A DNA stretch of 21,782 nucleotides, taken from positions 1 to 21,782 of IMG/VR virus record IMGVR_UViG_3300004461_000509; one strand, given 5' to 3'. A model generated the notes under the pieces. That model had not been told where the DNA came from. It searched no databases and saw only the letters and a program-made list of their open reading frames with translations. The stretch's first letter is position 1, and every line of letters starts with the position of its first letter. The translations under genes were made by a program, and so were the position numbers. Source of the stretch: a virus. Below, one piece after another: positions 1-14,324 of the stretch.

Positions 1-1139
1 AAAAGCTCAGAAGCAGTAACCGTGGCCTCCGAACCTCCAACCCCAAGGTCGTCGTCCAAATTACGACCGCCAGACGTTGTCGCGGTTGTGTTATAATCTC
101 TTGGAGCGAGGCCAACGTAATTGCCATTTGAGTTAACATAATATTTAAGCGGGTTGTCGGCGTATTCTCCGTCAGTTAAATATTTAACCTGAACAGTTTC
201 ACCATTATAGGTCTCAGTCTCCGGGGCGTCAGTCACAACATCCGTGTAAGCCGTCAAAGACTCGTCCGTGTCACTCGTAGCAGCCTCAGTATAATCTTTA
301 CCACTGGAAGTGGTGCTATCATCAAAAGGGGTTTGTGAAACAGGATCCGCAACAAAAACCGTGTCGTTGTAACTGTCCGTCGATGCAACAGTGTTCGTGT
401 TCTTAACACCCGTATAATCCACATTTGTTGCCGCAACCTGGTCTAGACCACTCAAGTCATTCTCGCCAGCAGCCTCTAACTTCTTCTGATAATCCGTCTT
501 CTCAACCTCAACCTCGTTCTCCGGAACCAGGCCTATAAAGGTGCCAGCCTCGTCCACATAGTACTCTCGTCCGTTGCTCAAGGCTTGTTTAGTTAAACCA
601 GAAGTGGAGGCTGAAGGAAGAGCATCGTAGTTGCCAAAAAGATCGTCACCACTAAGTCTTTCTTGCTGATCTGAAGCGATCATATCGTTGCCAGCATCTA
701 ACTCAACCTGAGTCGCACCAGTGTAAATGCTCTCACCCTCATTACGAGTGTTAGACGTGATGTTAATCGTCTCGCCAGCCTTAATATTGTTAATATCAAT
801 ACCAGGATTGTCCGCCTTGATCTGCTCAATCGTCGTGTTGTTATCCAACGCAAGCTGAGAAACAGTGTCACCAGAATTAATCTTCTGTGAGCTAGTGTTG
901 TCGTCGTTGTCGGTGCTGTGCCTACCAACTGTACTAACCTGCGTCCCCGGCTTGCTCGGATCAGTGTCTAACTTAGGGTTGTTCGGATCACTGTAATCGT
1001 TCTCATAAACCGTGGGAGGAGGGGCACTGCTCGGACCATCGTCGCTGTCGCCGCCGCCACCACCCGGATCATCACCCTTAAAGGTCCGAGGATCAAGAAA
1101 CGCCGAAAACAAAAACGGGTTGTATAAACTACTGCTCAT
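1..1139 (-). CDS. LysM-domain phage protein (3' end off the left edge)
   Basis: An open frame starts at ATG 1139 and reads without a stop to the window edge, giving at least 379 residues. The N-terminus is followed by a Gly/Asp/Pro-rich linker. Residues about 85-129 form a LysM-type module: the GDTVSQLALDNNT start, a central IKADNPGI and a closing IKAGETINI match the family pattern (GDTxxxIA, LxxxNPxI, IxxGqxixI). LysM domains bind peptidoglycan, so a virion- or lysis-associated role at the cell wall is likely but inferred. The rest is Thr/Ser/Asp-rich and acidic, and contains a 14-residue motif twice (YYV-x5-G-x-[IV]GL-x-P, encoded at 522-563 and 102-143). The start is one base after the stop of the GNAT gene, with a GAGGAAGG Shine-Dalgarno inside that gene's end. 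It is the third gene of a leftward operon. Confidence 0.85.
   Translation of the reverse strand, partial: MSSSLYNPFLFSAFLDPRTFKGDDPGGGGGDSDDGPSSAPPPTVYENDYSDPNNPKLDTDPSKPGTQVSTVGRHSTDNDDNTSSQKINSGDTVSQLALDNNTTIEQIKADNPGIDINNIKAGETINITSNTRNEGESIYTGATQVELDAGNDMIASDQQERLSGDDLFGNYDALPSASTSGLTKQALSNGREYYVDEAGTFIGLVPENEVEVEKTDYQKKLEAAGENDLSGLDQVAATNVDYTGVKNTNTVASTDSYNDTVFVADPVSQTPFDDSTTSSGKDYTEAATSDTDESLTAYTDVVTDAPETETYNGETVQVKYLTDGEYADNPLKYYVNSNGNYVGLAPRDYNTTATTSGGRNLDDDLGVGGSEATVTASEL
522..563 (-). repeat. Intragenic repeat copy 1 (YYV...GL.P motif)
   Basis: The 42-nt stretch encodes YYVDEAGTFIGLVP inside the LysM protein. A second, diverged copy (YYVNSNGNYVGLAP) is encoded at 102-143 in the same frame. 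Both are preceded by acidic Thr/Ser-rich sequence. This is a protein-level repeat seen directly in the translation; its function is unknown. Confidence 0.6.
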
Positions 1140-1140
1140 C

Positions 1141-1620
1141 TTAGACCTTCCTCACAAAGTACGAACCAACAAACTCGTAACCCTTACTACCCAATATCCC
1201 ATTAAACACCTTCGGATCAAGCTGGGATGTCTGACCAATCCGTAAATCCTTCGCACCATGGTCTAAAGCCCAACGCTCAAACAAAGAAAGTAACTGCAAA
1301 CCAACACGAGAACCACGGTGCTCAGGTAAAACATACCACAAAATGTCTTCCGCAATCAAATCACGGCTGAAAAACAAAGGTCGAACCTTGCCGCCAAAAA
1401 TACCAATAGGAGTTTTGTAGCTCCAAGCTACCCAAAAAGCGCACTGAGGGTCAGAAATAAACCTACGAACATTAGATAAACCATAATCAATGTCTAACGT
1501 CATGTGACGGTGGGCACTCTCCTCATGAGCAATCGTGCCTAACGAAACTAGCGCAGAACCAAAGCTGACAGAAAAATCATCTATAAACTCAAATGAAATT
1601 GTATCGGAAATTTTTGTCAT
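1141..1620 (-). CDS. GNAT-fold acetyltransferase-like phage protein
   Basis: 159 residues. The centre carries the GNAT motif A signature: beta strand 93-98 (ILWYVL), then P-E-H-R-G-S-R-V-G at 99-107 and an amphipathic helix to about 120, matching the acetyl-CoA pyrophosphate loop pattern (Q/R-x-x-G-x-G/A). The C-terminal GSKGYEFVGSYFVRK resembles the final strand of GNAT proteins. GNAT enzymes move an acetyl group from acetyl-CoA to amines; the substrate cannot be read from the sequence. In T7-like phages GNAT-like proteins also occur near virion genes, so a structural role is possible. The start (ATG 1620) overlaps the upstream stop by 4 nt, and an AAGG lies about 9 nt upstream. Second gene of the leftward operon. 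Confidence 0.75.
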   Translation of the reverse strand: MTKISDTISFEFIDDFSVSFGSALVSLGTIAHEESAHRHMTLDIDYGLSNVRRFISDPQCAFWVAWSYKTPIGIFGGKVRPLFFSRDLIAEDILWYVLPEHRGSRVGLQLLSLFERWALDHGAKDLRIGQTSQLDPKVFNGILGSKGYEFVGSYFVRKV

Positions 1621-1871
1621 TTGATTTGAGCCTTCCCCGCAGTTTTCGTGCGGCGATAACTACGGTTCTTAGACTTGGACAAAACTCCCAAATTCTTAGA
1701 ACTGTTGTCCCGAGGATTGCCATTCCGATGAGTAACGTCCTTCCCATCACCCTTCTTAACGCGACCAGACTTCTCCATCGCACGACGAGCCGCGTTCCGA
1801 GCTGCACGGTTTTTCTTCTGCTTAGGCTTGGAATGGTAATTGCGGTACTCGGCAGCATAATCACGGGCCAT
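1617..1871 (-). CDS. Small basic HNH-like phage protein
   Basis: 84 residues, very rich in Lys and Arg. The N-terminal half (AAEYRNYHSKPKQKKNR) is a basic helix. Residues about 47-68 read KDVTHRNGNPRDNSSKNLGV, close to the HNH core pattern (DxxHxxGNxxxNxxxNL), but the first His of the usual HH pair is Thr and no final catalytic His is evident, so nuclease activity is doubtful. Similar short proteins are common in tailed phages and usually annotated HNH endonuclease-like; that is family knowledge, not proof. The ATG at 1871 has an AAGGAG at 1879-1884 with good spacing. It is the first gene of the leftward operon, directly behind the 1900-1928 promoter. Confidence 0.8.
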   Translation of the reverse strand: MARDYAAEYRNYHSKPKQKKNRAARNAARRAMEKSGRVKKGDGKDVTHRNGNPRDNSSKNLGVLSKSKNRSYRRTKTAGKAQIK

Positions 1872-1899
1872 GGATGTTCTCCTTGTGTTCTCAAATGGT

Positions 1900-1928
1900 A
1901 TTATACCCGAATGAATTTACAAAACCAA
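1900..1928 (-). promoter_or_regulatory. Sigma70-like promoter of the leftward operon
   Basis: On the minus strand, TTGGTT (1923-1928), a 17-nt spacer and a perfect TATAAT (1900-1905) lie just upstream of the Shine-Dalgarno and ATG of the HNH-like gene. The predicted start is near 1893. It could drive the whole late block if transcription wraps round a circular or permuted genome. Confidence 0.65.
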
Positions 1929-1937
1929 CACTATAGG
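1929..1937 (+). promoter_or_regulatory. CACTATAGG, core resembling T7/SP6-type phage promoters
   Basis: The nine bases CACTATAGG match the core and start of T7 promoters and most of the SP6 core. The upstream recognition bases do not match either phage. The site points rightward into the structured non-coding region, back to back with the leftward promoter. No single-subunit RNA polymerase gene is in the window. A 9-mer match can arise by chance. Confidence 0.2.
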
Positions 1938-2238
1938 ACGCAGGGTAGCCCGTACCCCTGTATATAGGGGGGTAAGGGGGTCGGCGCCCCCTGTGGATAT
2001 CGATCGGTATCTGCTCCAGTAACCCCCAGGCTCGCACCCCTTTCCAAAACAGGTAGGCTATCCAGGTGTTAGGCCATAGGACCACGTGTCTACGTACCCC
2101 GGGGGGTCTTACTGTTACCAAAAACTTTGGACCTCTAACCTTTTGCACCCCACTGCAATGGTCGGGCGTCCGGGCAGGCTCTCGTGAATCGAGTCTCCTT
2201 CGTCGTCTCGACCCTACGGGCTTCGATCCTTGACGCAT

Positions 2239-2322
2239 ACGATCCTTGAGGGATCGTGTCGGTCTCCGAACCGACAGTCGGCCAACGGCTAGCCGCCCCG
2301 TTGGATCGCGCTGCGGACAGCG
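2239..2322. repeat. Row of four adjacent short hairpins
   Basis: Four perfect inverted repeats follow one another: ACGATCC/GGATCGT with loop TTGAG (2239-2257), TGTCGGT/ACCGACA with loop CTCCGA (2257-2276), CCAACGG/CCGTTGG with a 9-nt loop (2282-2304), and CGCTG/CAGCG with loop CGGA (2309-2322). A direct repeat GATCCTTGA sits at 2225-2233 and 2241-2249. Stems of 5-7 bp in tandem suggest a folded RNA or protein-binding array. Confidence 0.65.
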
Positions 2323-2594
2323 GAACCGTCCCGATATGCGCCCAGTCAGGGCCTGCGCTCCCTCTCCACTCTACGTCGATGTAACATTACACGGGGCCCT
2401 CTTCGAGGACCTCACGCTCCATGTTCCATCGTCGTTGAGCGGAGCCTCTTCCGCTGGTCAGCCTTCCTGAGTGCGCCAGCTCTTAAACTACTACACACAC
2501 ACATGAACCCCCGTGCGGATTGTCCCCCCGGGAGGCCATCCCATTTAATGCGTCGTCAACCCCACATGCTCCAACGCTACGCTTATGTGCGCGT

Positions 2595-2761
2595 GAGGGG
2601 TCGGGAGTTTACCCAAAATACAACATCACAGAACCTGACGCAACGTCATGGGGGTCTCGCTCCAAGGATCACCCTCAGTGCCAGTGAGCCCATGACGTAG
2701 CATCAGAACCTGAGATCTTGCATTTTGGGCCGCTCTGCTAAACTCCCTTGACCATCCCCTC
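2595..2761. repeat. Large imperfect inverted repeat (about 167-nt hairpin/cruciform)
   Basis: Paired blocks from the outside in: GAGGGG 2595-2600 with CCCCTC 2756-2761; GGGAGTTTA 2603-2611 with TAAACTCCC 2739-2747; CCCAAAAT 2612-2619 with ATTTTGGG 2722-2729; CAA 2621-2623 with TTG 2718-2720; then a symmetric 19x19 segment in which about 12 positions still pair; then ACGTCATGGG 2643-2652 with CCCATGACGT 2689-2698. The loop is 36 nt. The right arm carries one 9-nt bulge (2730-2738). Both arms also share CAGAACCTGA as a direct repeat. The fold reads on either strand; it lies about 95 bp upstream of the first rightward gene. Confidence 0.8.
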
Positions 2762-2855
2762 GTAAACTCGGCGCGATTAAATGTGCGGCAAGGAGATGGG
2801 ACAATGCACGAAGTTCCATGTGCGTTGTAGTTGTAACCAACCATAGGAGGCCATC

Positions 2856-3140
2856 ATGGCTAAATCAATAACCACATCAGCAGCACAAACACCAATCGAT
2901 ATCAGGTTCGATAACTTGTACGACCTCGAGCACATAATCGACGCACTAACAGAACTGCTTCAACTCACAAAACACACTCAGTACAGCAGGTACGGGTTCT
3001 TGAGAGACGAGCTTATCCAAGCAAGACTAGACGCGCTCAAGGCGTTGGAGACGAGCAGCAAGTACAACTCAGATCGAGACAAGTACAAGGTGTCTACGGG
3101 TGACATCGTCAAAGAACGCAACCAAGGAGAAGCAGCATAA
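2856..3140 (+). CDS. Hypothetical small phage protein, first early gene
   Basis: 94 residues, no family recognised. The middle (residues about 17-65) is predicted helical, with the pattern LYDLEHIIDALTELLQL and a Tyr-rich stretch QYSRYGFLRDELIQARLDAL. The C-terminus is charged. The start has the strongest Shine-Dalgarno of the area, AGGAGG at 2845-2850, five bases before ATG. The stop overlaps the next start as TAATG, so translation is probably coupled. Its place as the first gene after the structured non-coding region, in a run of short ORFs, is typical of early phage genes acting on the host; no specific role is visible. Confidence 0.8.
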   Translation: MAKSITTSAAQTPIDIRFDNLYDLEHIIDALTELLQLTKHTQYSRYGFLRDELIQARLDALKALETSSKYNSDRDKYKVSTGDIVKERNQGEAA

Positions 3141-3358
3141 TGATCAAACCGTCAGGGTTCTTCAACACTCCTGACACGTGGGAGGATCTAGAGAAATGGA
3201 TCCTCCAGCACTCTCGAGATCAGCACGTGTCACTACTAACCTCAGCCCACATGGCTCGCAACTACACAATCAAACAAATTCAAGAGGACGACAAAGTCAA
3301 TCGCGTAAGTCTAAAAGATTGGTCACTCAACTCAACTAAGGAATCAGACAATGGATAA
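3140..3358 (+). CDS. Hypothetical small phage protein
   Basis: 72 residues with no recognised domain. Aromatic and charged residues in the N-terminal part (SGFFNTPDTWEDLEKWILQH) suggest a small soluble helical protein. It begins in a TAATG overlap with the previous gene, with GGAGAAGC just upstream as ribosome site, and ends in an 8-nt overlap with the next start. This tight packing supports it being translated. Function unknown. Confidence 0.7.
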   Translation: MIKPSGFFNTPDTWEDLEKWILQHSRDQHVSLLTSAHMARNYTIKQIQEDDKVNRVSLKDWSLNSTKESDNG

Positions 3359-3587
3359 TCTTACAACACAACTCACCGACATCATCATCGCCATCATTCA
3401 GGACAAGGTGGACGAGCGGATCGAGATGAAGCTCGCCGACATTCAGGAGGGTATCGACACCGCAGCATCGTTCGACATCGAGGACCATCGGTCGGACATA
3501 CTCTCAATGGTCGAGGAAGACTTCGACATAGACGACAAGGTCGACCACATCCTCAACATGAAGACCTTCACCGTCACTGTAGACTAA
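3351..3587 (+). CDS. Hypothetical small acidic phage protein
   Basis: 78 residues, strongly acidic (many Asp/Glu, few basic residues), with alternating hydrophobic positions, including the helical start LTDIIIAIIQDKVDERIEM and a second helix DILSMVEEDFDIDDKVDHIL. It starts inside the end of the previous gene (8-nt overlap) behind AAGGA. Small highly acidic phage proteins are sometimes DNA mimics that block host nucleases; that is only a possibility here. A TTCG stem-loop follows 8 nt after the stop and ends this three-gene set. Confidence 0.7.
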   Translation: MDNLTTQLTDIIIAIIQDKVDERIEMKLADIQEGIDTAASFDIEDHRSDILSMVEEDFDIDDKVDHILNMKTFTVTVD

Positions 3588-3594
3588 CCAACCA

Positions 3595-3614
3595 GCGGGG
3601 GCTTCGGCTCCCGC
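3595..3614 (+). terminator. Stem-loop with TTCG tetraloop after the first three early genes
   Basis: GCGGGGGC-TTCG-GCTCCCGC forms an 8-bp stem with a single G.T(U) wobble and the very stable TTCG loop. It starts 8 nt after the stop of the acidic protein gene. No T-run follows (ACCACAC), so it may be an mRNA stabiliser or processing site, not a true rho-independent terminator. Confidence 0.6.
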
Positions 3615-3635
3615 ACCACACATAGGAGAACTAAC

Positions 3636-4328
3636 ATGAAAAGCGGAATCATTTACAAGGGGCCTAGCCAACTCGACGGTAAGCCTATTGTGGTTATCGC
3701 CACATACTCTAACCGCAACACCAAGACAGGAGCCGTCGTGCAGACGTACATCCTGACCACGGAGAATCCTCTCGAAGCCAGCAAGACAGGCCGAGACTCA
3801 ACCATCTGCGGCAGCTGCATCATGCGCGGCACCCCAACAGATGACCCCAAGCGCAAGATCGCCAAGGGCCGACGCTGTTACGTCAACCTCGGGCAGGGTG
3901 TCCTGATCGTCTTCAAAGCATTCGAGCGCGGCGTATACCCAATGGCCGACAGTCCAGATGCACGAAGATCACTTGGCGCTGGGCGATTCATTCGCATCGG
4001 CACATACGGAGATGGAGCTGCCGTACCCGACTACGTTTGGGACGAGCTACTCAGTGACGCGGACAACCACACAGGTTATAGCCATCAGTTCGGTTGGAGA
4101 CCAGACATCGCAATGCAGTCAGCGGACTCATACGAGGAAGCTCTAACACACTGGGAAGCTGGTCATCGCACCTTCAGGGTCGTAGCAGACATACTCAAGG
4201 TCGATCCAACACGCGAGGTCCTATGCCCCGCATCCAAAGAGGCAGGCCGTCGAGTACAATGCACCGCCTGCAAACTCTGCAACGGGAACACATATAACGC
4301 CAAGTCCATCGCAATCGTCGAACACTAA
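3636..4328 (+). CDS. DUF7227-like phage/plasmid protein with Cys motifs
   Basis: 230 residues. The opening (GIIYKGPSQLDGKPIVVIAT followed by YSNRNTKTG) and the segment CGSC-x-M-R-G-T-P-x-D-D-x-x-R-K-x-A-K-G-R-x-C-Y-V-N-L-G-Q-G are the hallmark of a conserved phage and plasmid protein family I recall as DUF7227. Cysteines 58, 61 and 81, and a C-terminal group at about 197, 209, 212 and 215 (CTACKLC), suggest bound zinc or an Fe-S centre. The family's function is not known to me; Cys-rich replication or single-strand DNA related roles have been guessed for such genes. The start has TAGGAG 8 bases upstream. A TTCG stem-loop lies on each side, so it is an independent unit in the early region. Confidence 0.8.
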   Translation: MKSGIIYKGPSQLDGKPIVVIATYSNRNTKTGAVVQTYILTTENPLEASKTGRDSTICGSCIMRGTPTDDPKRKIAKGRRCYVNLGQGVLIVFKAFERGVYPMADSPDARRSLGAGRFIRIGTYGDGAAVPDYVWDELLSDADNHTGYSHQFGWRPDIAMQSADSYEEALTHWEAGHRTFRVVADILKVDPTREVLCPASKEAGRRVQCTACKLCNGNTYNAKSIAIVEH

Positions 4329-4335
4329 CACCACA

Positions 4336-4355
4336 GGAGGGGCTTCGGTCCCTCC
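4336..4355 (+). terminator. Second stem-loop with TTCG tetraloop
   Basis: GGAGGGGC-TTCG-GTCCCTCC: an 8-bp stem with one G.T wobble, 8 nt after the stop of the 230-residue gene, followed by TTCAACT. The architecture is the same as at 3595-3614 with a different stem sequence. It probably ends or stabilises the rightward early transcript before the leftward nuclease gene. Confidence 0.65.
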
Positions 4356-4377
4356 TTCAACTACTATCATACATGGA

Positions 4378-4429
4378 GTCGCCTAGTCGGCGACAAGATT
4401 TCTAAAGAAAAATTGAGTGCCTTCGGCAC
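4378..4429. terminator. Further small hairpins in the convergent intergenic region
   Basis: GTCGCC/GGCGAC with loop TAGTC (4378-4394), the short palindrome TTTCT-AA-AGAAA, and GTGCC/GGCAC with loop TTC (4417-4429) follow in close order. The stretch lies between convergent genes (rightward to 4328, leftward stop at 4493), so these hairpins may end transcription from either side. No long T-run is present. Confidence 0.4.
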
Positions 4430-4469
4430 AAGGTGTTTGTTGGTCCTCGTTCCTCGGACGGGAAACCGG

Positions 4470-4488
4470 CGCGTGGGGCCGCAGGGCT
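4470..4488. repeat. GC-rich direct repeat, copy 1 of 3
   Basis: CGCGTGGGGCCGCAGGGCT occurs here and again at 4535-4553, 65 bp away. The inner 17 bases (GCGTGGGGCCGCAGGGC) recur at 8179-8195 inside the zinc-ribbon gene. The first copy lies just past the stop of the nuclease gene; the second encodes its ALRPHA residues. The C-terminus of the nuclease may have been altered by this duplication. Confidence 0.7.
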
Positions 4489-4492
4489 CGCC

Positions 4493-4918
4493 TCAAGGCC
4501 AACGGGCGCCGGCGCTGACACCAAGAATGGACGCCGCGTGGGGCCGCAGGGCTTCAAGCGCGGACCGCACGTTCTCGAACCGCTCACCGTCTGCACCAGA
4601 CAGGCCTTTTTCCAATAATCGTGGACCCTGATCCCCGCCAAACAAATATACATCCTTGGTAGAGGCCGACTTTACTAAGAAGAAATTTGCGCCACCTCGA
4701 GAGTAATAGGCCATATTCCACGCAATTTGATGCGGGGACAGTTTTACTGCATTACTTTTACAGACTTTGAGCTCTAGCCAAAAAGGAACACCATCCGCAA
4801 CAACGTGCACGTCAGGTACACCTCCGCCGTGCTTGTTCTCAATCCTCGTCACGAACCACTTTTTCGGTAAGTTCTGCCTTATCGAGTTCCAAAAGTTCGC
4901 CTCCGGTCCCTTGCTCAT
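4493..4918 (-). CDS. PD-(D/E)XK nuclease, VRR-NUC / resolvase-like
   Basis: 141 residues. The first 85 residues look like a compact PD-(D/E)XK nuclease: E27 in RIENKHGGG, then G-V-P-D at 33-36, then E-L-K at 49-51 at the end of the next strand, and a helix with Q64 (SPHQIAW), as in VRR-NUC or Holliday-junction-resolvase-like phage enzymes. Such enzymes cut branched DNA using a metal ion, for example to clear replication intermediates before packaging. The C-terminal 40 residues are Ala/Gly/Arg-rich and overlap a GC-rich repeat, so they may be a non-conserved extension. The start overlaps the terminase gene by 80 nt; the N-terminus (FWNSIRQNLPKKW) fits the family, so this start is preferred. 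AAGGA lies 11 nt upstream. Confidence 0.78.
   Translation of the reverse strand: MSKGPEANFWNSIRQNLPKKWFVTRIENKHGGGVPDVHVVADGVPFWLELKVCKSNAVKLSPHQIAWNMAYYSRGGANFFLVKSASTKDVYLFGGDQGPRLLEKGLSGADGERFENVRSALEALRPHAASILGVSAGARWP
4535..4553. repeat. GC-rich direct repeat, copy 2 of 3
   Basis: Perfect 19-bp copy of 4470-4488, within the 3' end of the nuclease coding region. A third copy of its inner 17 bases is at 8179-8195 in the same orientation. Confidence 0.7.
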
Positions 4919-5405
4919 TTGGTGTCACATCCTTCATGTCTAAATCAAAAGCCTGCGGGTATTGTTTCCTCAAAGCATCCAAGCGAGAAACAATCTGATC
5001 GCGTGTAAGTTGGTCAACACTGTTGATGTTTTCTCTTCGATCAATCGTCAAACCACCTAGGGCTGACCTGATCTTTTCAGCGTTGATTGCAGCAGAAAAC
5101 TGGCCCGCGTCTTCGGCGCCCCTAGACAACTCATGCAGTCGTTCCAATTGTCCAATCGTAGTGACCCCATACCTACGCTCGCGCTCATCTCGTAGCTGTT
5201 TCACATACTCTACGACATGAGGGTAGTCTCTGCCGTTTAGCAAAACAGAGGCCTGCTTTGCGGCAAGGTCTGATGAGTAGCCAGCCTTTCTGGCACACTC
5301 AGCGTTGCTATATATTCCTTCAACGATGTGTCTGGAAAAAGTCATCTGACGATTAGTCAGTGTTCGATCGTGCTTGTCTTCTACATCAGCTTTTATGCTC
5401 GGCAT
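4839..5405 (-). CDS. terS: Terminase small subunit
   Basis: 188 residues. Residues about 17-72 match the DNA-binding N-terminal domain of small terminases: LTNRQMTFSRHIVEG, then SNAECARKAGYS as the helix-turn-helix and AAKQASVLLN before a helical segment (HVVEYVKQLRDERERRYGV), the usual Terminase_2 layout. The protein recognises the packaging site and loads the large subunit, which is not in the window. The middle is helical and fits an oligomerisation region; the C-terminus is acidic. The start at ATG 5405 has GGGAG six bases upstream and a good leftward promoter at 5431-5460. It is followed by, and overlaps, a nuclease gene. Its isolation from other late genes and its opposite strand to the neighbours are notable. 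Confidence 0.82.
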   Translation of the reverse strand: MPSIKADVEDKHDRTLTNRQMTFSRHIVEGIYSNAECARKAGYSSDLAAKQASVLLNGRDYPHVVEYVKQLRDERERRYGVTTIGQLERLHELSRGAEDAGQFSAAINAEKIRSALGGLTIDRRENINSVDQLTRDQIVSRLDALRKQYPQAFDLDMKDVTPNEQGTGGELLELDKAELTEKVVRDED

Positions 5406-5430
5406 CGGTCACTCCCAATGTTGGTAATCA

Positions 5431-5460
5431 AATATAGAACTCTTTAAAACGAGTTGTCCA
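5431..5460 (-). promoter_or_regulatory. Promoter with inverted repeat in its spacer, upstream of terS
   Basis: On the minus strand TGGACA (5455-5460), an 18-nt spacer and TATATT (5431-5436). The spacer contains an inverted repeat AACTC-N8-GAGTT (5438-5442 and 5451-5455) where a repressor could bind. The predicted start is about 20 bases before the ATG of terS. Confidence 0.5.
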
Positions 5461-5543
5461 TATAGGGGATTTACCACCCCTACTACAAAACTTCAATTTC
5501 TCTGTTTGGGGTACTGATCTGGGTTCGTCCAACTCAGATATGA

Positions 5544-5644
5544 TGTCATCATGATGACACTGTGATGACAAAGGACCAAGGACCGGTGACCCCTTATTAT
5601 TATGACCTTTCACCTATGATGATGACGCTGATGACGCTGATGAC
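5544..5644. repeat. TGATGAC iterons with a 16-bp palindrome
   Basis: TGTCATCATGATGACA at 5544-5559 is a perfect palindrome. The heptamer TGATGAC occurs at 5552, 5563, 5620, 5629 and 5638 on the plus strand and once inverted at 5545-5551. The last three are in 9-bp register (TGATGACGC, TGATGACGC, TGATGACAC). A variant TGATGAT lies at 5742 in the promoter spacer. The arrangement suggests cooperative binding of a protein, possibly an initiator or repressor encoded nearby. Confidence 0.65.
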
Positions 5645-5727
5645 ACCATTTCTGTTTTTTATTTTTACAAAAACACATGCACCCCCATATCCTCTATATA
5701 GCAACTCGTTTTTTCTCAAATTAATTG

Positions 5728-5756
5728 TTGAAATTAATACCTGATGATACTATATA
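5728..5756 (+). promoter_or_regulatory. Sigma70-like promoter of the rightward early operon
   Basis: TTGAAA (5728-5733), a 17-nt spacer and TATATA (5751-5756). The predicted start is about 5763, which leaves a 24-nt leader with AGGAG before the ATG at 5787. This argues against using the ATG at 5763 as the gene start. Confidence 0.7.
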
Positions 5757-5774
5757 AGACATATGAAACCTAAC

Positions 5775-5795
5775 AGGAGAAATCAGATGCCTAAT
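5775..5795 (+). repeat. Duplicated ribosome-binding/start region, copy 1
   Basis: A 21-nt sequence from AGGAG through the ATG and CCTAAT is repeated exactly at 5989-6009. In both places it is the ribosome site and first codons (ATG CCT AAT, MPN) of a gene. The next genes also start MPN (6201 and 6650). Confidence 0.75.
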
Positions 5796-6008
5796 CTACA
5801 AGAGTTTTACAACCTGATTACAGAAGCCACCGATATTATATCCGCGTTATGGTTTGATGATGGGTGGACGGGTGACTACCCGTACAAGACGCACACTGAC
5901 GGCAGTGTTCATTACACTGCCGAGGCGCAAGAGTTTTACAATCAGATTGAGGATCAGGTTAAGGGAATCCTGATTGGTTATTTCGTGAAGGAGAAATCAG
6001 ATGCCTAA
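5787..6008 (+). CDS. Hypothetical phage protein, first gene of main early operon
   Basis: 73 residues from the ATG at 5787, chosen because AGGAG lies 7 bases upstream and because the promoter start would make the upstream ATG (5763) leaderless. No family recognised. It is acidic and aromatic-rich, with WFDDGWTGDYPYKTHTDGSV in the middle and two similar helical pieces, QEFYNLITEATDI and QEFYNQIEDQVKGIL, which suggests a small internal duplication. The stop overlaps the next gene by 8 nt. Function unknown; position right after the strongest rightward promoter suggests abundant early expression. Confidence 0.7.
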   Translation: MPNLQEFYNLITEATDIISALWFDDGWTGDYPYKTHTDGSVHYTAEAQEFYNQIEDQVKGILIGYFVKEKSDA

Positions 6009-6009
6009 T
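5989..6009 (+). repeat. Duplicated ribosome-binding/start region, copy 2
   Basis: Exact 21-nt copy of 5775-5795. Here the same bases also encode the last residues (EKSDA) and stop of the preceding gene, which overlaps this start by 8 nt. Confidence 0.75.
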
Positions 6010-6201
6010 ACAAAAATAGTTACGTTCCAAGTAATGCGTCAAGAGACGTGGTATCCTGAGTACGAGGTTCCTGCACATTTAGAGGGTGACGAGTTGATAG
6101 AGTACATCAGCAACGAGGCCCCTGCTTCGGTGTTCGATGAGATGTGCAACAAGAGCACGTTGGACACTGAAACTTATATTCAACCTGTGGAGGAAGTGTA
6201 A
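6001..6201 (+). CDS. Hypothetical small phage protein
   Basis: 66 residues, no recognised family. The pattern (TKIVTFQVMRQETWYPEYEV, then GDELIEYISNEAP) alternates strands and a helix like a small alpha/beta fold, and it is acidic. The ribosome site and first codons are an exact copy of those of the previous gene. It ends in a TAATG overlap with the Api92-like gene, preceded by GAGGAAG, so the two are likely translated together. Confidence 0.68.
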   Translation: MPNTKIVTFQVMRQETWYPEYEVPAHLEGDELIEYISNEAPASVFDEMCNKSTLDTETYIQPVEEV

Positions 6202-6650
6202 TGCCTAACCATTGCTATCAGAGTGTGTACCTTCGGGGCCCGAGCCATTTGATCCATCACCTACACAAGGCGCTGTCGAAGTCGGAGCCAGAGTTTTGCA
6301 GCACGATTGCGCCCATGCCGTTTGAGTTGTGGGCCAAGGAGACGCAGCCGGATCAGGTGATGCCTGACTGGTACGAGTGGAGGTGCGAGAACTGGGGCAC
6401 GAAGTGGGATGTCTGCGAGGCTGAGATCGACGAAGATGGTCTTGAGTATTCGGATGATCGGAAGGTTGCGTGGTTCTCGTTCCGTTGTTGGACGGCATGG
6501 GGTCCGCCTGTTCCTGTGTGGGATCGCCTTCATGCGATGGGCATTGAGGTCGAGGCTGATTATCAGGACGAGGGCATGAACTTTGAGGGTGCGTACAGAG
6601 AAGGCGAGGAGTCAAACTGGAACATCGTGCATGAAGCGGAGGAAGCATGA
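6201..6650 (+). CDS. Api92-like phage protein (ferredoxin-like fold, DUF1281-type)
   Basis: 149 residues. It starts MPNHCYQSVYLRG and has F-C-S-x-I-A-P-M-P at 32-40, then W-R-C-E-N-W-G-T-K-W-D at 60-70 and W-T-A-W-G-P-P-V-P-V in the second half. These are the conserved features of the Api92/DUF1281 group of phage proteins, which has a ferredoxin-like domain (a fold, not an iron-sulphur protein). Members occur in many phages and plasmids; their role is unknown to me. It begins in a TAATG overlap and ends in a TGATG overlap with the HTH gene. Confidence 0.8.
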   Translation: MPNHCYQSVYLRGPSHLIHHLHKALSKSEPEFCSTIAPMPFELWAKETQPDQVMPDWYEWRCENWGTKWDVCEAEIDEDGLEYSDDRKVAWFSFRCWTAWGPPVPVWDRLHAMGIEVEADYQDEGMNFEGAYREGEESNWNIVHEAEEA

Positions 6651-8375: not shown

Positions 8376-8571
8376 ACGAAACTACTATCATCCCGACCTA
8401 ACCGATGAAGAAGTTTCAATACTAAGATTTTTAAGACAGGAGGCAGACAGATGCGAAAGCGAAGTTAGAGTTCACCAACCCAATAACAATAGTTGGCAAC
8501 GACTATGGTACGCGAAAGAAAATCTCGCACGATACGTAACACAACTTAGAAAGAACGGAAAAAACCTATGA
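8365..8571 (+). CDS. Hypothetical small phage protein
   Basis: 68 residues with no recognised family. It is helical and charged: DLTDEEVSILRFLRQEADRC, then WQRLWYAKENLARYVTQLRK. The layout (two amphipathic helices with Arg, Trp and Tyr) would suit a small nucleic-acid or protein-binding module; this is a guess. There is no clear Shine-Dalgarno; the start overlaps the previous gene by 11 nt and the stop overlaps the next start by 4 nt, so it is probably translationally coupled. Confidence 0.6.
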   Translation: MQNKRNYYHPDLTDEEVSILRFLRQEADRCESEVRVHQPNNNSWQRLWYAKENLARYVTQLRKNGKNL

Positions 8572-9170
8572 AACACAATAACTTCTCTGATGTATCAGAC
8601 ATGATCGAGCACAAAACATTTATTGTAAACCACATCACCATCCGAGATGAACGGGTCGTGGCTTGTTTTGGTCAAGCAGTTGAAGATTTGACCAGTTGCT
8701 ACATCACACCGAGCCTTGTTTACAAACACGAGCTCTCGGAGGGGCTGCTGATTAAAGCCCTAGTAGTAAAAAATTTGCATCAACAAAACAGCCGCACAGA
8801 ATGGCGTGTGGTGTCTATTGTAGCCACTGGTTACTTGGATCAAGAAGAGCCTGTCGATGTTAAAGAGCAGGTCGTTGAGGAGCCCGAGGTTTCTATCGAA
8901 GAACGTGTGAAGCATCTTTTCTCAGGCATGCCAGAAGAGTGTTTCACTTCGAGAGAGGTGTGCGAACTGGTGTTGGAAACTAAGGGCGTAAACGTCACGG
9001 TACGAGACGTTCTTCGAACGATGCACAGGTTAGGTGAGATTTGTCAGCTTAGAATAAAGACAAAGGCTTCGAATCGGCGCGGCACAATCCTTTGGGGTCT
9101 GAACATCTCATCCTTTGGGTTTACTGACGATGAGGTCGAGGACGAAGAAGTTGAAGTATACGAGGAGTAG
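8568..9170 (+). CDS. Phage protein: beta-rich N-domain, winged-helix-like C-domain, acidic tail
   Basis: 200 residues, no family recognised by name. Residues about 15-95 alternate hydrophobic strands (TFIVNHITIRDERVVACFG, YITPSLVYKHE, EGLLIKALVV, EWRVVSIVATG), which would suit an OB-like or other small beta fold. A Glu/Val linker follows (about 96-120). Residues 121-180 resemble a winged helix: ERVKHLFSG, EECFTSREVCELVL, VNVTVRDVLRTMHRLGEICQL, then a basic wing (RIKTKASNRRGTILWG). The tail is nearly all Asp/Glu. Beta domain, winged helix and acidic tail together recall single-strand DNA-binding and replication-accessory proteins, but I infer this from pattern only. ATG 8568 overlaps the upstream stop by 4 nt. 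Confidence 0.7.
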   Translation: MKHNNFSDVSDMIEHKTFIVNHITIRDERVVACFGQAVEDLTSCYITPSLVYKHELSEGLLIKALVVKNLHQQNSRTEWRVVSIVATGYLDQEEPVDVKEQVVEEPEVSIEERVKHLFSGMPEECFTSREVCELVLETKGVNVTVRDVLRTMHRLGEICQLRIKTKASNRRGTILWGLNISSFGFTDDEVEDEEVEVYEE

Positions 9171-9841: not shown

Positions 9842-11289
9842 TGCCTTGCTTCCTCACCAAGAACCTTGGCACCCAGTTCGATCTTCGCCTGAAGTGACTT
9901 CACAATCTTCTCGTCGATTGTGTTTTCAGTGATCAGATCAACGTAAGTAACTCGGTTCTTCTGTCCTATCCTGTGGGCTCGATCCTCAGATTGCATCCGA
10001 GTTTCGAGGTTAAAGTCGTTAGCATAATAGACCACAAGATTTGCTTCCGTCAACGTAAGACCATAACCGGCGGTCGCGGGGTTACCCACAAAGTACCGCA
10101 GCTTCTGTCCGTCTTGAAAATCTTTCACGATGTTGTTTCTATCATCGTCAGAAGTGTCCCCAAAATAAGAAGCGGCGCATCCCTCACCAAACTCATCGTT
10201 CAGCATGTCTGTGATCATCTTGATGTCGTGCCGGAATCGAGACCAGATGATTGCTTTGCCGTCATGCTCATGCAAAATATCTTTTAATGCATCGATGCGT
10301 TTAGTTTTAAACGTGTGCATCACATCGTCGTCATCTTTCAGATGTCCCGACAGCACTTGCTGCAACCGCAACAACTGTGTGATAACAGCCGGCGTAGAAA
10401 CAATCGCCGATTCGCCGGCGTCATCATCGAACATCTGCAATGCATACTTGCGGATATTCTCGTACATTTGTGTCTGGTCTTCTGTCATTTCGACATGCCG
10501 CACAGTGTAAACCTTTTCCGGTAGGTCAAGACAATCTTTCTTGAGCACTCGATATGAAAAGCTGTCGATCTTTTTTGTGAGCTCTTCAATATTTTTGTAC
10601 CCCATCACTTGGTTAAAAACCTTCATTCCCATTTTCTGTTTCATGATTACGGCGTACCGCATCTGAAAAGTATAGAAGGAGTCATGACCTAGGATGCCTT
10701 TACCAAGGAACTCGGCCTGTTGATATATATCAAGAGGGCTTTTTGTAATAGGCGACCCGGTCAACAGACGTTTGTATTTAAACATGGCAGAAATTTCGCA
10801 AAGGTTTTTGCTGCGCTTTGCCTTGTTGTTTTTGATGGTTGTGCTCTCATCAATAGCGATCATACCTTGGCGACCAAACATACGACCAAACCACTGGCCT
10901 ACCTGTTTACCTTTCAACGTTGAGAACGCTTCAACGTTCATGACAAAAATAGTTAACCCGTCGAATGGGTTTTTAACCTCCGCCATTTCTTTTTGTTGTT
11001 TCTTGCTAGCACTGCTAACCCATCGAACAACTCGATTCGGCACATCATCAGGCATGTGTTGCGGCAACTCTTTGCTCACCCAATTGCGATACACACCCTT
11101 TGGTGCGATTATTAACGCGAAGTTAATCTCGCCGGCTTGATACAACATTCCCATATTGTCTATCAAAACCTTTGACTTACCCGTTCCCATCTCCATAAAA
11201 AATCCAAACGAGCGTTTGGATCCCGCAATGTCTAATGCGGTCTGTTGATGTTTATACGGTTTAGTTTTGAAATTGTACTTGCAATCCAT
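9817..11289 (-). CDS. SNF2-family DEAD/DEAH-like helicase
   Basis: 490 residues from ATG 11289, chosen because AGGGAG lies 6 bases upstream; an earlier in-frame ATG at 11334 has no ribosome site. Superfamily 2, SNF2-type motifs in order: Walker A M-G-T-G-K-S at 34-39, motif II D-E-S-T at 147-150, motif III L-T-G-S-P at 176-180, motif IV KAIIWSRF, motif V GYGLTLTEAN and motif VI Q-S-E-D-R-A-H-R-I-G-Q at about 433-443, the last typical of SNF2 enzymes. Such ATPases translocate on duplex DNA; in phages they are thought to help replication or recombination. It lacks extra chromatin-type domains. It is the first gene of a leftward cassette between two rightward operons, sharing a 72-bp divergent control region with the replication operon. 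Confidence 0.87.
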   Translation of the reverse strand: MDCKYNFKTKPYKHQQTALDIAGSKRSFGFFMEMGTGKSKVLIDNMGMLYQAGEINFALIIAPKGVYRNWVSKELPQHMPDDVPNRVVRWVSSASKKQQKEMAEVKNPFDGLTIFVMNVEAFSTLKGKQVGQWFGRMFGRQGMIAIDESTTIKNNKAKRSKNLCEISAMFKYKRLLTGSPITKSPLDIYQQAEFLGKGILGHDSFYTFQMRYAVIMKQKMGMKVFNQVMGYKNIEELTKKIDSFSYRVLKKDCLDLPEKVYTVRHVEMTEDQTQMYENIRKYALQMFDDDAGESAIVSTPAVITQLLRLQQVLSGHLKDDDDVMHTFKTKRIDALKDILHEHDGKAIIWSRFRHDIKMITDMLNDEFGEGCAASYFGDTSDDDRNNIVKDFQDGQKLRYFVGNPATAGYGLTLTEANLVVYYANDFNLETRMQSEDRAHRIGQKNRVTYVDLITENTIDEKIVKSLQAKIELGAKVLGEEARQWLSISPK

Positions 11290-11308
11290 CTCATTCTCCC
11301 TATATGGT

Positions 11309-11332
11309 CTTATACATGGACCACGGTGGTTC
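11309..11332. promoter_or_regulatory. Operator-like dyad and -10 element between divergent operons
   Basis: GGACCAC-G-GTGGTTC (11318-11332) is a 15-bp dyad with one mismatched pair, in the 72-bp gap between the SNF2 gene and the replication operon. On the minus strand TATAAG (11309-11314) could be the -10 of the SNF2 promoter, with the dyad lying in its spacer. No good -35 is seen. The nearby HTH proteins are possible binders; this is inference. Confidence 0.4.
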
Positions 11333-11361
11333 ATAAATCAACCCTGAAGAGGAAAAAACTT

Positions 11362-11922
11362 ATGACAAATATATTCGAAGACATTTTCGATGAAGGCGAT
11401 GCACTCGCTAACATCGACAGTGGAACTGGCAAGCAACTTAGCACGCTGGTTCGAAGTCTCCGTGAGGTCGAGAATCAAATCGAGAAAACGGAGAACGTTC
11501 TCAAACAACTGAAGTCCGAGAAACACCGCATGTCGGTGGAAACTATTCCTGGACTGATGGATGAGATGGGCGTGGAGCGTCTGGATGTTGATGGTTTGAC
11601 CGTCGAACGCAAGATGATGGTCCATGCATCGATCCCACAAGATCGTAAAGAAGATGCGTTCGCATGGTTACGTGAGAACGGGTTGGACGACATTATTAAG
11701 AATGATGTCACGTGTTCGTTTGGAAAAGGCGAAGACAACGTTGCGGGTGATGTTGTTGGGATTCTACACGAGCGAGGGTTTAACCCCAAAACAAAGACCC
11801 ACGTGCACCCATCTACACTGAAGGCGTTTGTGAAGGAACGTGTGACAGAGGGTAAACCAATCGATCTCGACATGTTCGGGGCATTTATCGCAAACGCAGC
11901 TCAAATCCGGAGGAAATCATAA
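11362..11922 (+). CDS. Gp157-like coiled-coil phage protein
   Basis: 186 residues from ATG 11362, behind AAGAGG; the longer frame from 11245 would cross the divergent promoter region and overlap the SNF2 start, so it is rejected. A long coiled coil at about residues 25-58 (LVRSLREVENQIEKTENVLK then QLKSEKHRMSVETIP) is followed by LMDEMGVERLDVDGLTVERK, a short beta segment typical of phage Gp157/Gam-like proteins that accompany SSB and recombination genes. The last third includes H-P-S-T-L-K-A-F-V-K-E. I assign this group by pattern with moderate confidence. It is coupled (TAATG) to the SSB-like gene and is the first gene of the replication operon. Confidence 0.68.
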   Translation: MTNIFEDIFDEGDALANIDSGTGKQLSTLVRSLREVENQIEKTENVLKQLKSEKHRMSVETIPGLMDEMGVERLDVDGLTVERKMMVHASIPQDRKEDAFAWLRENGLDDIIKNDVTCSFGKGEDNVAGDVVGILHERGFNPKTKTHVHPSTLKAFVKERVTEGKPIDLDMFGAFIANAAQIRRKS

Positions 11923-12722
11923 TGGGTAACGCAGTAGCAAAGAAAAAGAATGCAGAGTTAAGCACAGATGTAATGGACGACATCTTGGAGTTCGCCGGCG
12001 AAGGCGCCGTGTTCGACAGTTCCGAGATGCAAATTCCATTTTTGCGTGTACTACAGGCACTGTCACCTCAGCTAAACAAGAAGAAGGCTGAGTACATTGA
12101 GGGTGCTTCCTCTGGGGACTTGTACAACACAGTCACCAATCAATTCTTTGACGGTGAAGAGGGTGTTATTGTAATCCCGTGCTTCCAAACAGTGAAGTAT
12201 TTAGAGTTTACACCTCGTGAACAAGGGGGCGGATTCCGTGGAGAAATCCAAGCATCGGATCCGATGTTGCAACGCACTGAGCGTGTGGGTTCCAGAGAAA
12301 TTTTGCCGACTGGAAATGAGTTGGTAAAATCCGATCAGCACTACTCAATGCTTGTGCTGCCTGATGGCATGTATCAACCTGTAGTCATCGACATGAAGTC
12401 GACCCAGTTAAAGGTTAGTCGTCGGTGGAAGACCTCCATCGCTGCCAATCGGGTCAAGCATCCGAAGACGGGAAAGCTCATAACACCTCCTGTCTTTGCT
12501 TCTATGTGGAAATTGTCTACAGTTGAAGAGAGCAATGACCAAGGTTCATGGTCCAACTACAAGGTCGACCCTATGGGCCTTGTCCAAGACCGTGATTTAT
12601 TGCTTGAGGCTAAAGCGTTCCGCGACAGTGTTGCGGCAGGCGAAGCTAAAGCTGCACCGGAAGAGGGGGTCTCCCAAAACTCCTCTGCTAGTTCCACCTC
12701 CATGGACGACATTCCGTTTTAA
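11922..12722 (+). CDS. SSB-like protein with DIPF C-terminal tip
   Basis: 266 residues. The core (F-L-R-V-L-Q-A-L-S-P-Q then EGASSGDLYNTVTNQFFDGE and EGVIVIPCFQTVKYLEF) belongs to a widespread phage protein group found beside Gp157-like and replication genes, and I recall it as ssDNA-binding by annotation only. A Ser/Ala-rich linker leads to a C-terminus M-D-D-I-P-F (261-266), the same as the tip of bacterial SSB (DDDIPF in E. coli), which docks partners such as RecO, PriA, Exo I and Pol III chi. This supports a single-strand DNA-binding role, though a classic OB motif is not obvious to me. GGAGG lies upstream, and the start forms TAATG with the previous gene. A long hairpin follows the stop. 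Confidence 0.72.
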   Translation: MGNAVAKKKNAELSTDVMDDILEFAGEGAVFDSSEMQIPFLRVLQALSPQLNKKKAEYIEGASSGDLYNTVTNQFFDGEEGVIVIPCFQTVKYLEFTPREQGGGFRGEIQASDPMLQRTERVGSREILPTGNELVKSDQHYSMLVLPDGMYQPVVIDMKSTQLKVSRRWKTSIAANRVKHPKTGKLITPPVFASMWKLSTVEESNDQGSWSNYKVDPMGLVQDRDLLLEAKAFRDSVAAGEAKAAPEEGVSQNSSASSTSMDDIPF

Positions 12723-12729
12723 GCAGCTA

Positions 12730-12769
12730 GAGGGGGCCGCTCCGTTGCAGGAAAATATGCGGCCCCCTC
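12730..12769 (+). terminator. 11-bp stem-loop between SSB-like and primase genes
   Basis: GAGGGGGCCGC pairs perfectly with GCGGCCCCCTC across an 18-nt loop; the sequence after it is GTCTATTT. It starts 8 nt after the SSB-like stop and ends 20 nt before the primase ATG. It may partly terminate or process the mRNA, setting higher levels of the SSB-like protein than of the downstream replication enzymes. Confidence 0.65.
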
Positions 12770-12788
12770 GTCTATTTGGGAGATTAAC

Positions 12789-14324
12789 ATGACAATAGCT
12801 AAAAGAATGCTCGACGCTTTTGAGGGGTCGGATGCGGGTTATCTTGTTACTGTTGTTGGAGACAAGGGTAAAAAGGGTAAGACCGAGGCCGACTATCGTA
12901 CGCGTCACGGTCAGGTCACAGAGGGTTTACTTCAAGATCACCTCGATGGCCTCAAAGGGATCGGCATTGTCCCAATTAAAAAAGATGTCTGCAAATTTGG
13001 TGTCATCGATATTGATGACTACGGTCTCGATCACGCGATACTTCAGAAGAATATACAGCGTCTTAAAATGCCTCTGGTGCATTGCCGGTCCAAATCGGGT
13101 GGGGCGCACCTATATTTGTTCTTCAATGACTGGGAGTCATGTGCCGTTGTTCGTGATCTTTTAGAGGAGCTACGGGCTGCGTTAGGTTACAGTGGTTCGG
13201 GAGACTTATTTCCTGCACAGGACACCGTTAACCAGGAAGAAAATCAGATTGGCAATGGGATTAACATTCCGTATTTCAACGCTGAACTACCTACACGCTA
13301 CGCGTACGGGACTGACATGAACGCGCTCGAGGTCGAAGAGTTTTTAGACTTAGTGGAGAACTCTCGAGTGTCTCTGGCCTCTATCCAAGAACTTGATTTT
13401 GCTGGAGAAAAGCAGCTCTTTTCTGATGGACCAATTTGTTTGCAGTTAATTGCAGCGGAGGGGTCGATCACTGAGTCAAGAAACATATGCATGTTCAACA
13501 TTGGCGTGTACTGTTTAATGAAGTGGCCTGATGATTGGGAGCATCACATGGAGGAGTACAACCGTACGTTGTGTGACCCGCCCCTACCGGCTTCCGAGAT
13601 TGTTGCCCTGCAAACATCATTGAAAAAGAAGGCGGGGTACTTCTACCAATGCACAATTTGTCCGTTAAAAGATTTCTGCAACAAAGCAAAATGCAAAATG
13701 CAGAAGTATGGTATTGGCTCTGGCGGAGAAGACTATGCTGACATCAGTGGTATTACTATCATGCTGTCTGAGCCGCGTTTATATTTTATGAGCGTCGACG
13801 GTAAAAACCTTACGCTCAAGACGGAAGACCTACAGAACCCGCATCTGTGGCAAAAGGCTTGCATGGAGCAACTAGACATCATGCCGCCGAAACCTAAGAA
13901 CGCAGACTGGCAGCAGCTAATTAACTCGATGCTGAGTACTGCCACAAAACAAGAGGTTTCAAAGGAGCTAACGTGGTCAGGTAAGTTTGAAAACCTTCTG
14001 CGTCAGTATTGTACCAGCTACGTGAGAGCGGTAGCGCCCGAGGAAGTGTTGCTTGGAAAGCCTTGGACGGACAATGGTAAAACCATGTTTAAGATTGATG
14101 CGTTGGAAAAGTATCTGCGTAACAATGACTTCACAAGATATGACACCGGTCAGATTCAAGATCGCATTCAAAAGTTGAATGGAGAGTCTAAATGCCAGGG
14201 TCATTTGAATTACCACAAGGAGGATGGAAAACGATCCAACACTCGTGTGTGGTGGGTTCCGGAGTTTGGGGACGACGAAGTAAAAGTAGAGATAAAGGAA
14301 GACAAGTATGACATACCGTTCTGA
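12789..14324 (+). CDS. Archaeo-eukaryotic-type primase (AEP)
   Basis: 511 residues. AEP active-site motifs: D-I-D at 74-76 in FGVIDIDDYGLD (the hhhDhD metal site), R-S-K-S-G-G-A-H at 100-107 (the sxH motif), D-L-F-P-A-Q at 139-144 and GNGINIPYFN at 155-164. This order matches AEP primases of TOTE and phage type, which make primers without a DnaG fold. C288, C291, C297 and C302 (CTICPLKDFC then KAKC) form a possible zinc finger. The remaining C-terminus is not assigned; no helicase Walker motif is seen. The last residues are K-Y-D-I-P-F, an SSB-tip-like ending shared with the preceding gene's product. The ribosome site GGGAG is upstream of ATG; the stop overlaps the HTH gene by 17 nt. Confidence 0.82.
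   Translation: MTIAKRMLDAFEGSDAGYLVTVVGDKGKKGKTEADYRTRHGQVTEGLLQDHLDGLKGIGIVPIKKDVCKFGVIDIDDYGLDHAILQKNIQRLKMPLVHCRSKSGGAHLYLFFNDWESCAVVRDLLEELRAALGYSGSGDLFPAQDTVNQEENQIGNGINIPYFNAELPTRYAYGTDMNALEVEEFLDLVENSRVSLASIQELDFAGEKQLFSDGPICLQLIAAEGSITESRNICMFNIGVYCLMKWPDDWEHHMEEYNRTLCDPPLPASEIVALQTSLKKKAGYFYQCTICPLKDFCNKAKCKMQKYGIGSGGEDYADISGITIMLSEPRLYFMSVDGKNLTLKTEDLQNPHLWQKACMEQLDIMPPKPKNADWQQLINSMLSTATKQEVSKELTWSGKFENLLRQYCTSYVRAVAPEEVLLGKPWTDNGKTMFKIDALEKYLRNNDFTRYDTGQIQDRIQKLNGESKCQGHLNYHKEDGKRSNTRVWWVPEFGDDEVKVEIKEDKYDIPF

Follow-up and report, generated by a model that had tools for sequence, protein, structure and literature searches.

The closest described counterparts of the element reported here are Frpo1 and Frpo2 (ssiD) of plasmid F, together with ssi2 and ssi3 of ColIb-P9, the likenesses discussed below being drawn from the F loci. 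Sites of this type fold as single-stranded DNA, are read by the host RNA polymerase, prime the complementary strand and drive the early genes of the leading region (PMC7690428, PMC9849209, PMC7736820, PMC11541004). Frpo/ssi promoters thus account for the expression of anti-defence genes in conjugative plasmids ahead of double-strandedness. In the literature that we searched, mostly papers open without subscription, Frpo elements are described only in plasmids, and we found no report of them in phages.

The window, that is the whole stretch of DNA analysed here (IMGVR_UViG_3300004461_000509, positions 1-21,782), is a 21.8-kb virus contig whose DNA polymerase is closest to those of the Pelagibacter phages HTVC023P and HTVC027P and of the phages 023Pt_psg01 and DSL-LC04 (49-53% identity). 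A nucleotide search of a phage collection gave no match, either with 2300-3700 or with the whole window; the relatives used below were retrieved with two queries, the HNH protein and a 22-mer from the hairpin. The locus is laid out as follows:

1617-1871, minus strand: HNH endonuclease gene, 84 aa (Pfam HNH_3, 4.6e-07), flanking the interval on the left
1872-2855, minus strand: structured non-coding interval separating the minus-strand HNH gene from the first gene of the plus strand, without conserved ORF, at the same position in relatives
2595-2761, minus strand: hairpin as first reported (conserved form 2603-2747)
2856-3140, plus strand: first downstream gene, 94 aa, of no family but with known relatives, transcribed away from the element
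3636-4328, plus strand: fourth gene of the plus-strand block, 230 aa (phrog_2554), kin of terminal genes of Roseobacter and Caulobacter phages

The 94-aa product gave no match in Pfam and PHROG searches. Its gene opens a group of four small plus-strand genes (2856-4328) to the right of the interval. Because relatives of the 230-aa gene sit close to the genome ends in Roseobacter and Caulobacter phages, and because a terminase small subunit gene is found at 4839-5405, we infer that the plus-strand genes from 2856 form an early block, perhaps near the packaging end. Elsewhere on the contig, domains named from TOTE conflict systems are matched by a primase (AEP-TOTE, 12789-14324) and, below threshold, by the ORF at 8568-9170 (S1CSD-TOTE), and a 1190-aa ORF on the minus strand (18127-21699) has no match in Pfam or PHROGs. 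Ahead of the HNH gene stands a promoter-like pair, TTGGTT-17-TATAAT (1900-1928, minus), conserved in many relatives; on the plus strand it is overlapped by CACTATAGG, which mimics a T7-type promoter. We rejected this last sequence (1919-1937) as a start of plus-strand RNA, since it is the only such site in the window, no T7-type polymerase was found in 12 records, and the same bases make up the sigma-70-like HNH promoter on the minus strand.

The first-pass annotation of this DNA had singled out the hairpin at 2595-2761, and the inverted repeat is indeed present: its arms (2612-2652 and 2689-2729, 41 nt each, 80% complementary, with a loop of 36 nt) are the top inverted repeat within 1-6300. 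Folding of both strands, which that annotation advised for 2580-2780, gives for 2595-2761 with RNA parameters -70.3 kcal/mol for the plus strand (z -5.94) and -91.3 kcal/mol for the minus strand (z -8.75), energies reached by none of 200 shuffles on either strand; DNA parameters give z -6.5 (plus) and -6.7 (minus). The paired blocks that it listed do form a hairpin, except that the outermost one (2595-2600 with 2756-2761) falls outside the conserved fold: in the consensus of nine contigs the hairpin spans 2603-2747, and 2558-2602 is a separate hairpin. The direct repeat CAGAACCTGA, which the arms were said to share, is a near-palindrome (TCAG-AAC-CTGA) found in each arm and gives no sign of duplication; being near-palindromic in both arms, its two copies come to lie opposite each other and pair around a 3x3 internal loop. 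That no gene explains the hairpin agrees with our alignment A1, in which no reading frame is conserved and which contains indels of 1 nt and larger.

The hairpin is, according to the consensus folds, predicted to be one arm of a domain of about 350 nt, itself within a structured element of about 950 nt. The RNAalifold consensus of the nine contigs closes 2487-2834 on itself by a stem of about 45 bp, inside which come the inner helix, the side hairpin and then the hairpin 2603-2747. The parts of this predicted domain are:

2487-2529, minus strand: terminal stem, 3' arm, with changes mostly of wobble type
2542-2555, minus strand: inner helix, 3' arm, with compensated pairs in 2542-2549
2558-2602, minus strand: side hairpin of the multibranch domain, almost invariant across the nine contigs
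2769-2783, minus strand: inner helix, 5' arm, 2776-2783 pairing with 2542-2549
2795-2834, minus strand: terminal stem, 5' arm, ending about 20 nt ahead of the start codon at 2856

Three observations argue that the minus strand is the folded one: the consensus energy of the nine contigs that carry this hairpin (type A) is better (-161.0 kcal/mol, against -126.8 for the plus strand), G.T prevails over A.C, and some changes are both-sided. Among the cells of consensus pairs, each strand being judged on its own consensus, the minus strand has 137 G.T and 2 A.C, the plus strand 30 G.T and 11 A.C; the arms as found without any folding show, in plus-strand letters, four A.C oppositions and not a single G.T. 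The variable pairs on the minus strand change chiefly by wobble, and of the six pairs with both-sided changes five belong to the inner helix, both arms of which have changed in contigs L087 and L088. We therefore take the minus strand to be the predicted folded molecule, and a plus-strand RNA was rejected for its poorer energy and its A.C breaks. For the interval as a whole (1872-2855) the z score is -8.6 on the minus strand and -7.5 on the plus strand. In 13 of 15 relatives the whole gap beats its shuffles (12 each) by more than 2.5 SD on both strands, the minus strand having the more extreme z in 10 of the 15.

Nine contigs, the window included, carry the module 2484-2855, most copies being 93-97% identical to that of the window and one 87%. 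In other relatives the gap between the same genes holds quite different sequence with other long hairpins, so that the gene-proximal hairpin appears to be exchanged for unrelated ones, and the part of the gap distant from the plus-strand genes is more widely common to relatives. (In contig L035, the structured gap upstream of the HNH gene contains GTGGCACGGGACTTACGCCCGTGC in three near-identical copies.) This wholesale swapping of the gene-proximal module is what one could expect of a functionless remnant of a mobile, MITE-like hairpin element, close to the "remains of a hairpin element" that the first-pass annotation considered. We find no support for such remains and think this origin extremely improbable, given a constant position between the same genes, a conservation of 93-97% in most carriers against about 87-90% for the neighbouring stretches, and compensatory changes. 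The alternative preferred by that annotation, a selected structure rather than a recent duplication, is borne out: homologous hairpins exist in all nine contigs and differ by compensatory and wobble changes, where their lack in related genomes would have spoken against it.

It is farther from the plus-strand genes that the locus meets the plasmid systems. This part of the gap contains a compact predicted structure, kept in most relatives:

2166-2236, minus strand: core plus closing helix, GCGTC (2232-2236) with GACGC (2166-2170)
2175-2232, minus strand: 56-nt core, a three-way junction with a G-N-A loop and tandem G.A (67.5 bits with model R1, which includes this very sequence)

The closing helix reads GCGTC/GACGC, GCGAC/GTCGC or GCGAT/ATCGC among relatives. 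In 22 diverse cores, 98.9% of the pair cells are standard, and the helices show 26 double-sided changes and not one single-sided; when the structure is slid along the sequence, the paired fraction drops to 33-64%. The hairpin loops are of the form G-N-A or G-N-N-A in 55 of 57 cores, loops known to make very stable DNA mini-hairpins, and one subgroup has Watson-Crick pairs in place of the tandem G.A. No match to the core was obtained in L086, L088 and L089, three contigs that do carry the type-A hairpin, which indicates that core and hairpin are separable modules.

R1 is a covariance model built from eleven cores, all from phages, with a structure given by hand. Plasmid F was fetched by accession and tested on hypothesis, and R1 finds in it two cores, at 58110-58168 (55.7 bits, E 1.8e-13) and at 63498-63556 (48.1 bits, E 3.7e-11), whereas 18 control phage loci, with a relative of the HNH gene and another sequence in the gap, gave no match. 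The two positions are those described for Frpo2 and Frpo1, respectively (PMC9849209). Both cores are on the opposite strand to the leading genes, within a pair of 559-bp repeats (58070-58621 and 63458-64011, 89% identical) placed upstream of ssb (58643) and of a gene at 64032. Judged by these sequence and model scores, we consider the homology of the core to the Frpo loci to be firm; outside the core, no similarity to Frpo was seen.

The likeness extends to the arrangement. In F, in enterobacterial plasmids, in Thalassospira and in a Rhodovibrionaceae bacterium, the downstream genes lie on the strand opposite the core and are transcribed away from it, and the phage is organised likewise, its core and giant hairpin being on the template strand of the plus-strand genes from 2856, as they are in F for the genes downstream. 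When folded as T-strand DNA, both F loci are predicted to form a giant imperfect hairpin beside the gene with the core farther out, a layout equal to that of the phage, and the intergenic stretches are similar in size. The phage element differs from Frpo in belonging to a tailed phage, in being present once per genome and in the unrelated sequence of its hairpin.

Searched directly, minus-strand 2232-2175 matches thousands of plasmids, which often have two to four copies each, and matches Microviridae and a Sphingopyxis phage at unannotated positions. The plasmid matches that we inspected are in leading regions, next to psiA, psiB, antirestriction and DUF1380 genes, and R1 gives 44-58 bits for pETEC_74 and a Klebsiella plasmid. 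A scan of genomes with a 24-mer specific to the phages gave no match, while a 20-mer of the common core retrieved 47 stretches of bacterial genome contigs, most of these chromosomal loci scoring about 40-72 bits. The microviruses 60Brd01 and SD_MC_78 reach 64-67 bits (E 5e-16 and 8e-17). As the microvirus and chromosomal loci had been found with the core sequence, their scores confirm the matches and do not discover them. ORF orientation taken naively around the chromosomal cores was discounted, being too noisy in GC-rich DNA.

Several individual loci deserve mention, the first of them alphaproteobacterial. In L119 and L126 (Rhodovibrionaceae and Thalassospira) the core precedes ardC by about 250 nt, on the strand opposite to that gene, and a gene with a ParB domain comes next; in a Hyphomonadaceae bacterium it lies near a relaxase gene. 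In Pseudomonas (L122, L124, L133, L137, L145, L152) a constant CAAGCGGAGCGCGCAGGCG precedes many core copies, several of which occur within a few kb of one another. The Sphingopyxis phage VSN-002 (L181, record positions 11222-14282), which has a telomere resolvase gene, contains three cores, of which one is on the strand opposite the other two.

The main rival explanation is a large structured non-coding RNA of the minus strand, transcribed toward the HNH gene and comparable to GOLLD and ROOL. The likeness consists in a big, ornate, phage-borne fold in their size range, whose 3' half is conserved and whose 5' half is swapped, as published for GOLLD (PMC12286853), and phage ICP1 makes an ncRNA of about 800 nt from an ORF-less gap (PMC7567579). 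The wobble of G.U type on the minus strand and the GNRA-type loops (GUAA or GCAA in L010, L018 and L035) would also suit an RNA, although wobble cannot separate RNA from single-stranded DNA because G.T pairs occur in the latter too. Unlike GOLLD and ROOL, the window has no Rfam match at gathering score (up to E 10 it gave only three chance-level matches, to other families, and ten loci gave none up to E 1) and no tRNA near the element, the tRNA/tmRNA search having returned nothing. A minus-strand promoter upstream of the fold was searched for and not found, single-sided changes are absent from the core in 22 sequences, and the core is part of plasmid elements that are described to work as single-stranded DNA. 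We dropped the classification as a GOLLD relative once the core had matched plasmids and microviruses, and we now regard such an RNA as doubtful.

The microviruses bring in a second rival, a single-strand or lagging-strand initiation site (a primosome or primase site) that serves replication only and has no promoter function. Their intergenic elements share the core with the phage and differ in the ssDNA genome, the short gap and the genes lying on the core's own strand. In these gaps the core is on the viral strand, and since the genes share that strand the element would be no promoter for them but only an initiation site, any RNA made there being a primer. Priming of the complementary strand is known for Frpo/ssi sites too (PMC7690428). 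We nevertheless think a purely replicative role unlikely in the phage: there, as in the plasmids examined, the element faces genes that use its strand as template, an orientation that priming alone does not need.

A third possibility follows the model of phage N4: a hairpin promoter would be extruded from supercoiled double-stranded DNA and recognised by a polymerase of the phage or of the host. The phage element resembles the N4 early promoters in having stable G-N-A loops and in preceding, in a dsDNA phage, what are likely early genes, with the terminase small subunit gene nearby, and N4 offers the precedent of hairpin promoters on injected dsDNA (PMC4496689). Two differences count against this possibility, which we consider very unlikely. 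N4 hairpins are of a few bp, far smaller than the hairpin here. They are also read by a virion RNA polymerase, and a T7-type RNA polymerase (PF00940) was absent from the 12 records searched, a search run without positive control on contigs that may be fragments.

We think that the region may instead be a relative of Frpo/ssi in a tailed phage, a single-strand promoter or initiation region that would serve the genes from 2856, prime plus-strand synthesis, or both; we give this reading about an even chance. The minus strand would become single-stranded during strand displacement or lagging-strand replication, during genome entry or in an extruded cruciform, and would then fold into the giant imperfect hairpin and the conserved core. 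This fold would recruit host machinery, most simply RNA polymerase, and an RNA started on the minus strand as template would proceed rightwards and act as an early message of the genes from 2856, as a primer of the plus strand, or as both. That the element acts as DNA, that RNA polymerase is its reader, and when the strand is single are thus proposals based on the plasmid parallel. The cruciform origin or regulatory RNA hairpin suggested by the first-pass annotation was in part well aimed, as an origin-like or regulatory role is plausible, but the minus strand, the larger element and the shared core had escaped it. Several points count against a Frpo/ssi-type region: tailed phages generally inject dsDNA, the core is absent from the named phages whose DNA polymerases are closest (HTVC023P, HTVC027P, 023Pt_psg01 and DSL-LC04), core and hairpin are separable, the microvirus element would be no promoter for its genes, and similarity to Frpo was seen in the core only. 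A scan of the folded strand gave no convincing -35/-10 pair (at best 7-9/12 in the phages); it is uninformative because the F Frpo loci were missed too (7/12).

It is surprising to meet, in a tailed phage presumed to inject double-stranded DNA, a core that belongs to regions carried by conjugative plasmids and ssDNA phages for their single-stranded stage. The presence of this core ahead of the early genes of such a phage, as well as in ssDNA phages, suggests that a DNA fold of wide distribution is recognised by host machinery. We would suggest, tentatively, that a lineage of tailed phages known from metagenomes uses plasmid-type ssDNA promoters for early transcription and/or second-strand synthesis, one 56-nt DNA fold possibly being a signal common to tailed phages, microviruses and conjugative elements; the genome of such a "double-stranded" phage would then have to pass through a programmed single-stranded stage. 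Which protein of the cell reads the fold, and whether some tailed phages do have a single-stranded stage, become testable questions, and with the calibrated model R1 unannotated mobile elements can be screened for leading regions and, through these, for candidate anti-defence genes.
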